Position numbers and translations under genes: made by a program
Assembly: GCF_040730185.1 (NCBI RefSeq)
Contig: NZ_CP160402.1
Location: forward strand, 558,001 to 622,000
Source: Streptomyces sp. Je 1-332
GTDB lineage: Bacteria; Actinomycetota; Actinomycetes; Streptomycetales; Streptomycetaceae
Reading direction: 5' to 3'
Length of the DNA: 64,000 nucleotides
The notes under the pieces: model-generated
The model's database searches: none
The model's input: the letters and a program-made list of their open reading frames with translations, nothing else
What the model was told of the DNA's origin: nothing
Shown here: positions 1 to 48,488 of the stretch, piece after piece
Position numbering within the stretch: position 1 is the stretch's first letter
Layout: the number at the start of each line of letters is the position of its first letter

Positions 1-45
1 GACTTCCGATTACCCGCATATCAGCACTGAAAACTCCTTAAATAC

Positions 46-64
46 CTAAAAGTGCCCCTTTTAG
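46..64. repeat. Inverted repeat upstream of first gene
   Basis: CTAAAAG and CTTTTAG form a perfect 7-bp stem around the loop TGCCC, about 80 bp before the GTG start at 143. It could be a terminator of the gene to the left of the window or a regulator site. The surrounding 60 bases are AT-rich compared with the rest of the window, which fits a promoter region. Confidence 0.4.
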
Positions 65-142
65 CCGGGTGCGAATGGGTGATACCTAGGTGCGGCTAGG
101 GTGATCCCGCGATGGCGCCACACACGCTCAGGAGGGGCAGAA

Positions 143-1926
143 GTGCGGGCTGAACCCCTGCCGATACGCGTGCCGGTCGGATACGACTCCGACCGCTGGG
201 CCAGCCGCGCGACGCAACGCCGGGTTCTGCTCGTGATCCACAACGCCACCTCCGCCGGTCGCCTGCTGGACGTGCTGCCGCTGTTCCATGACGACTTCCG
301 CGTCCAGCTGCTCGTCACCGCCACACATTCCTCCGCCTTCCAGGACGGAATCGACGAGCTCTTCTCCGACTTGGGCTTCCCCGTGCTCCCCTGGGAACAA
401 GCTCTGGCCACACCGGTGGATCTCGCCATCTCCGCAAGTTTTGGTGGTCAACTCACCTCTATTCAGGGCAAGTTGTCCATTCTCTCGCATGGGGTGGGAT
501 ATACTAAGAAACTAACCCAGCCGGGAGCCGGGAGCCGGGAGCCGGGAGCCGGGAGCCGGGAGCCGGGAGCCGGGAGCCGGGAGCCGGGAGCCGGGAGCCG
601 GGAGCCAGGAGCCAGGAGCCGACGTTCGGCCTTTCGCCGGAATGGCTCCTGGCAGACGGCAAACCGTTCATGGACGGCCTCGTGCTGTCGCATCCGGAAC
701 AGGTGGAGCGCTTGGGTCGTGTCTGTCCCGAGGCCGTGGACATCTCCGTGCTCGCCGGAGACCCTTGCTTCGACCGTATGCTCGCCGCGCGCCCGTACCG
801 CGATCGCTTCCGCCGCGGCCTCGGCATGCGACGAGGCCAACGGCTCGTCGTACTGAACTCCACCTGGAACCCCGAGGGTTTCTTCGGCAGTGGAGGCGGT
901 CATGACCTCTTGCCGAGTCTTCTGCCACGGCTCGCCGCGGAGTTGCCGGCTGATGACTACCGTCTCGCTGTCGTGCTGCACCCGAACATCTGGTACGGAC
1001 ACGGCCCCGGGCAGATCCGCGCCTGGCTGGACCAGGCCCGCCGCAGCGGACTGACCCTGATCGACCCCGCCCAGGCGTGGCGGCAGGCGCTGCTGGCCGC
1101 TGACGTCGTGCTCGGCGACTTCGGCGCGGCGACCTATTACGCGTCCGCTCTGGGAACCCCCGTGCTGATGGCAGCCACCGGGCAGGACAGGCTGGACCCT
1201 GACACACCGCTCGCCGCGTTCGTCCGCGACGCACCGCGACTCGACCCGCACGGCCCTTTGCGCCGCCAAGTGGAGAAACTGCTCGCAGACCATCAACCAG
1301 CCGCGGATCCAGCCGAGTTCGTCACCTCCGTACCCGGCAGCTCGGCTGCCCTCCTGCGGCGCCATTTCTACGCGTTGATGGATCTTCCCGAGCCCGCCAC
1401 CCCCGCTCTGCTGGAACCGCTGCCCCTGACTCCCCATGATCCGCCGCGGCTGACCGCACCCCTGCGCGTGCTCACACGCGTCCGTCGCACCGACATCGCC
1501 ATCGCCAGATCCACCGAGCAGCCCTACGAGGCTGACGGCGACGTACACCTCGCGGTGCACGAGGACACCCGGGACCCCGGCCTTCTGGAACTGGCCGACG
1601 TGATCGTGCGCGAGGGGGCCGCCGACGACCCGCGTCTGGGTGGTCCGGAGGCGTGGACCGCCGAGATTCTGGGCCGGCACGCGCACTGCGCGGTCGCCGC
1701 GTACGTGAGCGGCCCGCACGAGTGCACTCTCCGCAGCCGGCAGCACGGCCTGCTCCGGTTGTCCGCGGGCCCGGGGGCGGACCTCGATCCGGCGGCGTAC
1801 GCCTCTTCGCTGTACGCGTGGCTGGCGGACGGCGGCCGAGTGCCACCCGCCGGCGTCACGCTGGCGGTGCATGCGGCAGACGGCGTACACCCGGTGGTCG
1901 TGGAACCCGCTAAGGACGACGGCTAA
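143..1926 (+). pseudogene. Glycosyltransferase-like protein, frameshifted at a 7-bp repeat (possibly phase-variable)
   Basis: The start is GTG 143, with AGGAGGGG 5-10 bases upstream. The first part (frame of 143) reads about 126 residues ending SHGVGYTKKLTQ, then enters a 7-bp tandem repeat (521-618). In the present copy number that frame runs out at 856. The rest of the protein continues in another frame from the repeat through FGLSPEWLLADGKPF, then to 1926 (418 residues from ATG 670). Both halves look like one protein of a family common in Streptomyces that resembles CDP-glycerol glycerophosphotransferases and UDP-sugar transferases (AGDPCFDR, HPNIWYGHGPGQ, LGDFGAATYYASALGTPVL); the reaction is not known to me. 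One more 7-bp unit, or two fewer, joins the halves in frame. It converges on the STAND gene, with overlapping stop codons at 1923-1926. It may be a dead gene or a slippage switch now OFF. Confidence 0.7.
521..618 (+). repeat. Heptanucleotide tandem array (14 units)
   Basis: Twelve perfect CCGGGAG units (521-604) are followed by two CCAGGAG variants (605-618). Three units make 21 bp and encode a repeating PGAGSRE heptapeptide in every frame, so the array is open in all three plus-strand frames and only sets the phase between its flanks. It lies inside the coding region of the gene at 143. The same heptamer occurs in opposite orientation at 43635-43669. Confidence 0.95.
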
Positions 1927-4040
1927 GGACGAGCCTCGCAACGCAGCCGCAACCCATCCAGATACCGCAGGTGCGGAGCAGCCGTCGGGCCCAGCAGCCC
2001 CTCGGCCTCGGTGATCCTCGCCAGAGCTTCGGTGTCCTCGCCCGCGTCATGGAGGGCCTCGGCAAGGTCGGTCAGGGCACGTGCCTGGTTGTAGCTCTCT
2101 CCCTGCTCTTTGAAGAAGTTGGTGGCGGCCTCCAGAAGGTGCCGTGACTCCTCCAGCCGCCCCATCCCCCGCAGTGCGCGCCCTTGGTGACGCCCGGTCA
2201 GGGCGAGAGCGCGTGCCACGTCCTGCGCCCCCTCTTGGCCGGGAGCGATCCTCCGGTAGATGTGCTCAGCCTCGACGAACCGCTCATGGGCTGTCGCGTA
2301 ACGCCACCGGTAGAGGTTCAGGAGACCCAACAGCTCGACGGACGACGCCTCGCCCCGCACATGGCCCGCAGCGCGCTCACTCTCGGCGGCGGCGTGCGCC
2401 GCCTGCTCGGCCTCCTCCCATCGCCCGAGTTCGCCCAGACAGTGCCCGAGTTGAAAGTGCAGCCCCGCCGCCGTACGCGAGCGGGGCTGATGCTCGTCGG
2501 CGCACCGGGCCGCGACCCGCAACGCGGGCAGCACCTCGTCCCAGTGGCCGGCCTTCAGCTGGAGTGGCCACAGGGCGCGAGCCAGCCGCAGCGCGGTCGT
2601 GATGTGCTGGTACTCCACCGCCACGCTCACCGCGCGGACCAGATTTCCCACCTCCGCTGCCAGCACTGTCACGCCCTGCGCTTCGTCGCGGTAGGCGTCC
2701 CCGTCCGCCGGCACGGGCTCGGTACGCCAGCTCTGCGGCAGCGCGGCGTGGGCCGCGCGCAGAGCGCGGTTCAGGAGGGTGTCGAGTGTGCGCTCCACTG
2801 CGGCGGAGCATTCGGGAATCCCGTGCCGTGGCCCCGCGGCGTCAGCCAGAATGCGCCGCACCTCGGGGCGGAAGCGGTAGCGGTCGTCGGCCACGAAATC
2901 CAGCAGTTGGCCTTCTGCCACCTCGCCGAGCATGCGTGCCGCCTCTTCAGGCGTGACGTCGGCAGCCGCCGCGGCGAGGTGGGCGTCGATGGCGGGCCAG
3001 CCACCCAGCGCCGTCAGGCGGAGCAGCCGCGCCGTGTCCGGCCCGAGGCCGTCGCAGGCGTTCTGGACGGCACCGCGCACGGGATCGCCCGCCGGTGCGT
3101 CGTCCCCCGGCTCCGGGGCGGCGTCTTCCGACAGCAGACGCATCGCCTCTGCCTTCAGCGCGAAGGCGTTGCCCGCGCAGTGCTCCAGTAGCCCGGGTAT
3201 CCGCGCCTTGACCCGTGCGACGTTGTCCTGTCCAGCGACTTTCTTCACCATCTGCGTCGCGTACCGGTCGGTGAGGGGAGCGACCTGGACGCGCTCGGCC
3301 TCCAACGCGAAGGGACGGCCGGAGACGACCACCAACAGGAAGACGTCCGGAGTGCCCGGTATCAGGCTCCGGACCTGGGCCGCTGACGTGGCGTGGTCGA
3401 CGATCAACAAGGCCTGGCGTCCCGCGGTGAGTTGGCGGTAGAGCTGTTCGCGGGCCGAGGCCGTGGGCGGCATCTGCTCCGGCGCGACACCCATCTGTCG
3501 GAGCAGGCGCAGCAGGACATGGGCGGGTTCGGGGTCGTGTTCCGCTGCGGCGTCACGCAGGTCGACGTAGAACTGCCCGTCGGGGAAGTGTGCATAGAGA
3601 GTGGAGCCCAAGTGCAGTGCCACGGCGGTGGTGCCGATTCCCGGCGGCCCGTGCAGCAACGCGACGCGTGGCCGCCCTGCCGCGGGGCGGGTCGCCTCCC
3701 GCTTGAGCTGCTTCAACGCTTTCTGCCGGTTGGTGAAGTCCCTTGCCGCGGGCGGCAGTCCACTGGTGGCAGCCAGTGTCATGGCCGACGGCGGGAGGCT
3801 GCGAGCGAGGAGCGCCCACTCACCCGCCTGTTGCGGGTCTCGGCTCAGCCGCACGTGCATCTGCCCGGCCAGTGTCCGCCACTCTTCGGGGCTGGCCGGC
3901 CGTGGTGTCTCCCGGCCCATGGTCCTTCTCGCCAACGCACCGGTGGACAGGAGGAGTTGCTTGCCCATCTCTCCTGCGGCGCCGTTACCCGCTGCCGTGA
4001 GAAAAGCAGTCAACGCACTCAGCGCCACGATCTCCAGCAC
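1923..4040 (-). CDS. STAND/NB-ARC-like ATPase with C-terminal TPR-like repeats
   Basis: 705 residues, GTG start at 4040 with GGGAGG 8-10 bases upstream. Residues 1-35 are hydrophobic. An NB-ARC-like P-loop domain follows: GPPGIGTT near residue 130 sits at the Walker A position but has Thr where Lys is expected, and ALLIVDHA near 215 fits Walker B. A winged-helix-like middle is followed by about 250 residues of alpha-helical, TPR-like repeats (LHFQLGHCLGELGRWEEAE, ALRGMGRLEESRHLL). STAND proteins of this type act as ligand-controlled signalling scaffolds in actinobacteria. Loss of the Walker Lys suggests weak or no ATP hydrolysis. Its stop codon overlaps the stop of the convergent glycosyltransferase-like gene. 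Confidence 0.75.
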   Translation of the reverse strand: MLEIVALSALTAFLTAAGNGAAGEMGKQLLLSTGALARRTMGRETPRPASPEEWRTLAGQMHVRLSRDPQQAGEWALLARSLPPSAMTLAATSGLPPAARDFTNRQKALKQLKREATRPAAGRPRVALLHGPPGIGTTAVALHLGSTLYAHFPDGQFYVDLRDAAAEHDPEPAHVLLRLLRQMGVAPEQMPPTASAREQLYRQLTAGRQALLIVDHATSAAQVRSLIPGTPDVFLLVVVSGRPFALEAERVQVAPLTDRYATQMVKKVAGQDNVARVKARIPGLLEHCAGNAFALKAEAMRLLSEDAAPEPGDDAPAGDPVRGAVQNACDGLGPDTARLLRLTALGGWPAIDAHLAAAAADVTPEEAARMLGEVAEGQLLDFVADDRYRFRPEVRRILADAAGPRHGIPECSAAVERTLDTLLNRALRAAHAALPQSWRTEPVPADGDAYRDEAQGVTVLAAEVGNLVRAVSVAVEYQHITTALRLARALWPLQLKAGHWDEVLPALRVAARCADEHQPRSRTAAGLHFQLGHCLGELGRWEEAEQAAHAAAESERAAGHVRGEASSVELLGLLNLYRWRYATAHERFVEAEHIYRRIAPGQEGAQDVARALALTGRHQGRALRGMGRLEESRHLLEAATNFFKEQGESYNQARALTDLAEALHDAGEDTEALARITEAEGLLGPTAAPHLRYLDGLRLRCEARP

Positions 4041-43615: not shown

Positions 43616-43634
43616 GGTCGGCACCTCACGGCAC

Positions 43635-43669
43635 CCGGCTCACGGCTCCCGGCTCCCGGCTCACGGCTC
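43635..43669 (-). repeat. Second heptamer array (five units)
   Basis: CCGGCTC, ACGGCTC, CCGGCTC, CCGGCTC, ACGGCTC. On the minus strand the consensus is GAGCCGG, a rotation of the CCGGGAG unit at 521-618. It ends 2 bp before the peptidase stop codon, in its 3-prime untranslated region. Confidence 0.85.
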
Positions 43670-43671
43670 CC

Positions 43672-48451: not shown

Positions 48452-48488
48452 GGGGGGGTGGGGGTGGGGTGGGGTGGGGTGGGGTGGG
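48452..48488 (+). repeat. G-rich pentanucleotide repeat (quadruplex-prone)
   Basis: Seven runs of three to seven G separated by single T (G7, G5, four G4, G3). It sits 13 bp before the dioxygenase start; the C-rich strand is in that gene's message just ahead of AGGAGG. Four or more G runs can form a quadruplex on the template strand. Confidence 0.9.

Follow-up and report, generated by a model that had tools for sequence, protein, structure and literature searches.

Is a gene that a run of heptamers holds out of frame in Streptomyces DNA a working genetic switch, a gene in recent decay, or the product of an assembly that is one repeat unit short? Coding repeats that switch the frame are known above all from host-adapted, small-genome bacteria, and the gene described here would represent a repeat switch seemingly kept at one codon over deep time in large-genome actinomycetes. 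It lies near the start of the window (the whole 64,000-nt stretch of Streptomyces sp. Je 1-332 DNA that was analysed), and an earlier note had proposed it as a candidate phase switch. From the comparison with its relatives, we consider it probable (roughly 0.8) that the array is the switch of a conserved phase-variable (contingency) gene. Many relatives, in several actinomycete families, have such a repeat at this very codon, which argues for a long-conserved random on/off switch and not for a dead gene.

According to the mechanism that we propose, units would be gained and lost at a high rate through slipped-strand mispairing, a net gain of one unit or loss of two from the state in the window would give the full-length protein, and populations would hold ON and OFF states together. 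In the ON state, the array would be translated as a flexible, length-tolerant loop directly after the conserved HGxGY of an enzyme with a predicted GT-B fold; in the OFF state, the product would be no more than the N-terminal part followed by a wrong tail. To judge from its fold, the probable task of the enzyme is to add or polymerise a glycopolymer of the cell surface, as TagF/TarL do, and an upstream cis motif, TAYAMTAAR, probably favours growth of the array at its 5' end.

The split gene

The gene in the window has three parts:

143..517, + strand: N-terminal half, the start of a predicted GT-B fold, ending in HGVGYTKKLT; 84% identical to relative L002
519..616, + strand: heptamer array, in an OFF phase (2 mod 3)
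619..1926, + strand: C-terminal half in another frame (PTFGLSPEWLL...), the remainder of the GT-B fold and a C-terminal extension

The N-terminal half starts with GTG at 143, with AGGAGG upstream at 130-135, and its frame continues across the array to a stop at 856. Conservation of the C-terminal half begins at about 619, in a frame that differs from that of the N-terminal half, and its stop ends at 1926. Between them stand 14 heptamers on the + strand (519-616), 12 copies of AGCCGGG followed by 2 of AGCCAGG, and TRF gave this array (519-621, 14.7 copies, score 192) as the top of 26 rows for the window. Between 517, the last aligned N codon, and codon 670 lie 152 nt, which is 2 mod 3, so that adding 7 nt or removing 14 nt restores 0 mod 3. 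The arrangement is therefore as first described: two halves of one protein lie in different frames around 14 heptamers, the array has no stop in any of the three frames, and one unit more or two units fewer would join the halves.

The array in the gene family

Relatives were collected by a C-half search of 61 genomes (matches in 30), by a scan of GTDB representatives in which 354 relatives were confirmed and the best 80 of 354 were retained with flanks, and from Streptomyces plasmids (five further members). The resulting set of 94 members comprises 16 from the 61-genome search, including the window gene, 73 named relatives and 5 plasmid-borne ones. It leaves out L041, L060, L073 and L104 (N half not found), L069, L072 and L075 (C half the same as in L003, L006 and L004) and L017-L030 (best C identity below 50% to the 16 query members). 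For most of the named relatives the assembly is a draft, in which array length may be misjudged, and public sources label family members mostly as 'hypothetical protein'. In a class-level sample, 32 of 296 genomes and 15 of 114 genera had a match.

An array of at least 3.3 copies is present in 82 of the 94 members, always at the same codon, just 3' of the codons for HGxGY(T/N)K plus a few residues. The period is 7 in 77 members, 8 in two, 5 in two and 10 in one, and in none is it a multiple of three; it was set by hand to 7 in five of the 77, namely L032, L038, L044, L066 (N gaps) and L090 (extra hexamer run). A non-triplet tandem repeat inside coding sequence, which is expected of a contingency locus, is thus found throughout these arrays. 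In close relatives, the number of units differs by whole units and the frame is joined (ON) or broken (OFF) accordingly. Conversely, both halves share one frame in 11 of the 12 members with no array or fewer than 3.3 copies; the exception, L067, is out of frame, retains fewer than 2 heptamer units and has ACC as a codon of its motif; it is perhaps a contracted OFF allele that has become stuck.

The unit itself changes while its place does not. Among 80 arrays, the leading units were of 18 distinct kinds up to rotation, none of which contains a stop triplet. Turnover is visible between close species: the units of L046, L048 and L036 are CGAGTCA, CGCGATC and GAGTCAA, at a C-half pS of 0.12-0.16, and site and period are kept despite the different units. 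At the same site, loci with family codes f19, f20 and f48 have arrays whose units are unrelated and in many cases richer in A, and the units in other families include the heptamers ACAGGAA, AAACAGG, GAAACCG, GGAAACC and CGGGAAA and the 8-mers ACCCAGGA and AGGGAACC. In the order-level loci L012-L016 (family code f3), four of five have 5-mers or heptamers. Among the class-level loci L158-L182, taken without the window and L158, 12 have a junction array (7 in frame, 5 out of frame), and all 10 array-less ones are in frame. By this comparison, the array is a feature of the gene family and not peculiar to the window strain. Such a locus offers a natural experiment in which a mutable site is maintained while the repeat sequence turns over.

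Three junctions have additional features. In L090, the gap between the halves holds heptamers and then about 9 copies of a CTCAGG hexamer; in L158, a 9-mer run lies 3' of the heptamers; and L005 is split by an insertion of about 0.9 kb, presumably a transposase gene from its resemblance to one, that falls within the ACTAAG motif and adjoins a GGTGCCG array.

Cis motif, array polarity and repeats elsewhere

Three elements precede the array in the window:

449..451, + strand: CAA codon with nucleotide-level constraint; CAA or GAA at -48 in 74 of 81 array members
473..475, + strand: TTG Leu codon with nucleotide-level constraint; TTG at -24 in 77 of 81 array members
497..508, + strand: cis motif GGATATACTAAG (GGNTAYAMTAAR), whose synonymous T at 505 tracks array presence

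CAA/GAA and TTG are also kept in most of the array-less members listed. Of 81 array members, 79 have T as the last base of the Thr/Asn codon in GY(T/N)K, compared with 2 of 12 array-less ones, and the counts become 91 of 93 and 2 of 22 when the class-level loci are included; elsewhere in the N half, Thr/Asn codons seldom have A or T as third base (12.6%). Eleven independent tree pairs on supported branches differ in array presence, and the T was concordant in about nine and opposite in none (p 0.004). The labels for this test were read by script and 22 of the 25 loci L158-L182 entered it, with L177 (no N half), L158 (the same as L080) and L161 (the window) out; 16 of the 25 class-level loci with hand-set labels gave the same result. 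As controls, the neighbouring codons (H, Y, K and two G) had no significant link to array presence, the GGA codon leaning in the same direction (p 0.125), and in this control comparison (93 rows, 8 pairs) the T/N codon had a median p of 0.03 (0.03-0.125). The T completes a -10-like hexamer, TAYAMT, represented in the window by TATACT at 500-505, which ends 9-15 nt 5' of 74 of 78 arrays (median 12).

The arrays also appear to have a direction. When units were parsed by a symmetric method, 11 of the 82 arrays had an internal unit change, and in all 11 the homogeneous run was 5' and the variants 3', as in the window; these 11 are not all independent, as L036/L063/L070 and L065/L082 are close relatives, and L165, with an irregular 5' array end, is a counter-case. 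A first count of 24/24 was discarded because the way in which it parsed units was biased towards the 5' end. This polarity suggests that the array is renewed from the motif side.

Some further uses of the upstream sequence were considered and dropped. A hairpin between GGTCAACT and AGTTGACC was abandoned because its arms, by eye, pair inconsistently, and no use was found for the out-of-frame TAA that the motif provides (ACTAAG). An internal promoter is a possibility only, as the TTG at -24 would imply a 21-nt spacer and the scan of 1-2100 was empty.

That a heptamer array sits in this gene is more than chance: in 1.19 Mb around members, we found only one other heptamer array of at least 4 perfect copies, upstream of a family paralogue. 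Arrays of other periods numbered 9 for hexamers, 3 for pentamers and 2 for octamers. As a repeat of 8 or more units, AGCCGGG was met at least 18 times in 150 Streptomyces genomes, in 17 of them. Ten lie inside the family, namely nine of the 17 loci examined, among them the paralogue L188 with its array before the N half, and G014:C306, whose array adjoins a family match. At least 8 such arrays lie outside the family, six outside predicted genes and two overlapping an ORF from a crude caller, so this unit is not confined to the family. The window itself has a degenerate heptamer run at 43625-43671 (CTCACGG, CTCCCGG, CACCCGG, complementary to units of the AGCCGGG type), which by eye lies close to the 3' end of a minus-strand gene and beyond it, and a GGGGT pentamer run at 48461-48488.

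Paralogues about 34-44% identical to the family often have heptamer arrays (one has an 8-mer) either in the leader 5' of the gene or within its first codons:

L017-L019, L021, L025-L030, L033:10623-10712, L129-L149, L151-L152: paralogues with arrays in the 5' leader or first codons

Their units include GCCGCGA, CCGCGAG, GCGATCC, CGGACAC and CAGCGGG and others, with the 8-mer in L148, and no heptamer array was found in the paralogues L020, L022-L024 and L150. By eye, the paralogue arrays follow promoter-like sequence, often precede the ribosome site and often lie outside the frame. In L030:1-730, about 104 copies of CGAACCG stand upstream of the paralogue, from the first base of the stretch examined.

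Taken together, motif and array may form an actinomycete hypermutation cassette, in which a promoter-like GGNTAYAMTAAR, held by synonymous codon choice, accompanies a non-triplet array renewed at its 5' end, the whole outliving the letters of its unit across families and being used by paralogues in 5' leaders. We offer this reading tentatively, as one to which we give less than even odds; if it were true, mutability itself would be encoded and selected. The motif in cis is open to test.

The leader arrays of the paralogues also make a role at the DNA or RNA level possible. In such a case, the array would be a promoter-proximal spacer or an element of transcription or mRNA control, and the effect on the frame would be a by-product. 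The placement of TAYAMT, with its synonymously conserved T, before nearly all arrays would agree with this, as would the promoter-like sequence ahead of the paralogue arrays and the tuning of hmw1A in Haemophilus influenzae by 7-bp promoter repeats (PMC8262952, in excerpt). However, the promoter scan of window positions 1-2100 returned no promoter-like site and TATACT has no -35 at the usual spacing, and the array interrupts conserved coding sequence of which both halves are under purifying selection. We consider it rather unlikely that the frame effect is a by-product.

ON and OFF alleles

Both states are met among the relatives. Arrays of at least 5 copies were ON in 27 members, OFF1 in 19 and OFF2 in 17, with 4 more N-gapped and 1 interrupted by an insertion. 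The ON share (27/63) is not significantly above one third (p 0.11), so that no selection on the state is demonstrated. On a quick 110-row tree, the ON/OFF state of 75 scored rows (63 family arrays and 12 class-level ones) required 26 changes compared with a mean of 25.2 after shuffling, and 214 of 300 shuffles needed 26 or fewer, indicating that the state has no memory of descent at the species level. Nine members hand-picked as single contigs, chromosomes or plasmids were ON in 4 cases (two with only 3.3-3.7 copies) and OFF in 5.

Long-dead genes are expected to approach a pN/pS of 1. Among the 45 closest pairs listed, the C-half pN/pS was 0.19-0.29 in the five OFF-OFF pairs free of N gaps and 0.21-0.35 in ON-ON pairs, and all 94 members, the 42 OFF ones included, have N and C halves free of stop codons. 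The gene is thus otherwise maintained, with purifying selection and no further lesions, as a contingency locus would be. The other explanations named by the earlier note, recent decay of the gene or an assembly one unit short, start from the fact that the window allele is out of frame, and three relatives lend some weight to decay: L033 has lost motif codons, L005 has the insertion in its motif, and L067 is out of frame almost without an array, so some alleles may be damaged. Nevertheless, halves free of stops, low pN/pS in OFF pairs, arrays at one codon across families and L002, which is also out of frame with a different copy number (18.0 compared with 14.6 in the window), speak against decay or misassembly; we regard both as improbable.

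Because the genome collections hold one genome per species, same-species evidence consists of a few named pairs. Two plasmids of S. anthocyanicus (NBC_01372, NBC_01668) carry an ON allele (L121) and an OFF allele (L122) whose N and C halves show no difference and whose arrays are 56 nt, or 8 units, apart. The ON allele is annotated as a full gene and the OFF allele only from inside the array onward; OFF alleles may hence be annotated as shortened genes, and such a system is easily overlooked. In S. cacaoi, with units counted by hand, P0014 is ON and full length with 8 units and L068 (NBRC 12748) is OFF with 6 units, at a protein identity of 100% in the N half and 99.1% in the C half. In S. phaeochromogenes, L107 is OFF and P0082 and P0118 are ON, but at a C identity of 91-94% they are too distant for a clean pair. 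In- and out-of-frame alleles within one species were thus found in relatives and not in the window's own species. The proposal of a candidate phase switch accordingly gains from four sides: relatives have non-triplet arrays at the corresponding site, phases are mixed without phylogenetic signal, both halves of OFF alleles are under purifying selection, and two species each provide an ON/OFF pair.

Full-length protein might also come from OFF alleles through programmed ribosomal frameshifting, or through transcriptional slippage, on an array that, being repetitive and GC-rich, could slip. However, all three phases occur (27, 19 and 17), with 18 different leading units, whereas a programmed event would require that frame relation and site be constant; we attach little probability to this explanation.

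The encoded enzyme

The protein product of the candidate switch was approached through intact relatives. With the model of one of them, Foldseek returned TagF as the best match (E 4.9e-10), and the structural Z scores for TagF (21.5) and UDP-GlcNAc 2-epimerase (21.6) amount to a tie; as modelled, the enzyme appears to have a GT-B fold, nearest to TagF teichoic-acid polymerase and UDP-GlcNAc 2-epimerase. Against the PF04464 gathering cut-off of 22.1, L069 scored above (23.4) and L120 below (15.4), and the window halves had no match, nor did they match anything else in Pfam with an E limit of 1. No NCBIfam model passed its cut-off, and a sequence search of the PDB with A1 (E up to 1) was likewise without a match. 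In alignment A3, two histidines, those of HGxG and of HP, are invariant. The wall teichoic acid polymerases TagF/TarL (PF04464, 3l7k, 8va1) have a GT-B fold, as is predicted for the family enzyme, which differs in being about 14% identical to them and in having an extra C-terminal domain and the array loop.

In the model of the ON protein of L057, residues 129-155, the array region, have a pLDDT below 50 and the remainder folds; the ON array thus encodes a loop that is predicted to be disordered. That this disordered loop is a length-tunable linker beside the active site, as the range of about 3 to 39 copies in ON arrays and two S. flavidovirens ON alleles 21 nt apart (P0115, 585 aa; L096, 592 aa) might suggest, or that the halves are separate proteins in OFF cells, is very improbable, because the array periods are never multiples of three, so that most unit changes destroy the protein, and by eye no start codon holds a fixed place before the C half in the junctions.

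Relation to known systems

Researchers have found that pglX of S. coelicolor undergoes reversible ON/OFF phase variation at 10^-2 to 10^-4 (PMC4365076, in excerpt), and the earlier note's remark that phase variation is unusual for Streptomyces needs correction in this respect. As in our family, the length of a coding repeat sets the frame in a Streptomyces gene; in pglX, however, the repeat is a mononucleotide G-tract in a methyltransferase-type phage-defence gene (PMC4365076, in excerpt), whereas the window family has heptamers (also 8-, 5- and 10-mers) in a GT-B enzyme, at a position conserved over several families. With a heptamer as its repeat, the locus falls outside the pglX type of G-tract in a Pgl/BREX methyltransferase.

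The coding SSR loci of H. influenzae likewise have non-triplet repeats whose unit number sets the frame, and they sit in genes for surface glycans and modification (PMC2651432, in excerpt). Those loci are mostly tetranucleotides in a host-adapted species (PMC2651432, in excerpt), whereas ours are in actinomycetes, with the unit changing from one close species to the next at a constant site and period. The hmw1A/hmw2A genes of H. influenzae have 7-bp repeats too, which act in the promoter by dose control (excerpts of PMC8262952 and PMC2651432), in contrast to the array of the window, which lies inside coding sequence; the 5'-leader arrays of the paralogues are the analogue, being closer to the promoter-repeat type of hmw1A (PMC8262952, in excerpt). 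Among the titles and abstract openings listed in searches of open PMC papers, we found neither a heptamer phase switch in Streptomyces nor this family. At the level of its sequence, the locus has the features of SSR phase variation; it is unusual in its taxon, in a site and period that persist while the unit is replaced, in its cis motif and in its polarity. If the enzyme acts on a surface glycopolymer, the switch would vary the cell surface, including, for example, phage receptors, and if it alters the cell surface, this might account for phage sensitivity or colony traits that are unstable in Streptomyces.

The convergent partner gene

The array gene is followed in the window by a convergent neighbour:

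1923..4040, - strand: partner gene, an AAA/TPR ATPase resembling the ATPase-TPR part of AfsR

Against the AfsR equivalog of NCBIfam, the partner scored 148.2 bits (cut-off 1430) over profile positions 282-882 of 986, which places it outside AfsR proper. With an E limit of 0.1, no PADLOC family matched the partner (window, L120) or the intact relatives L120 and L069. The partner or a remnant of it was detected at 77 of the 79 loci with at least 1.5 kb downstream, 74 by clustering and L081, L095 and L119 by tblastn; L103 yielded no match, and L058 one of just 52 aa. Its spacing from the array gene is mostly an overlap or less than about 100 bp, with a greater distance in about 10 loci. On both S. 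anthocyanicus plasmids (L121 and L122, 7256-7471), the partner is reduced to a 71-residue TPR remnant, and the array state still differs between the two despite this.
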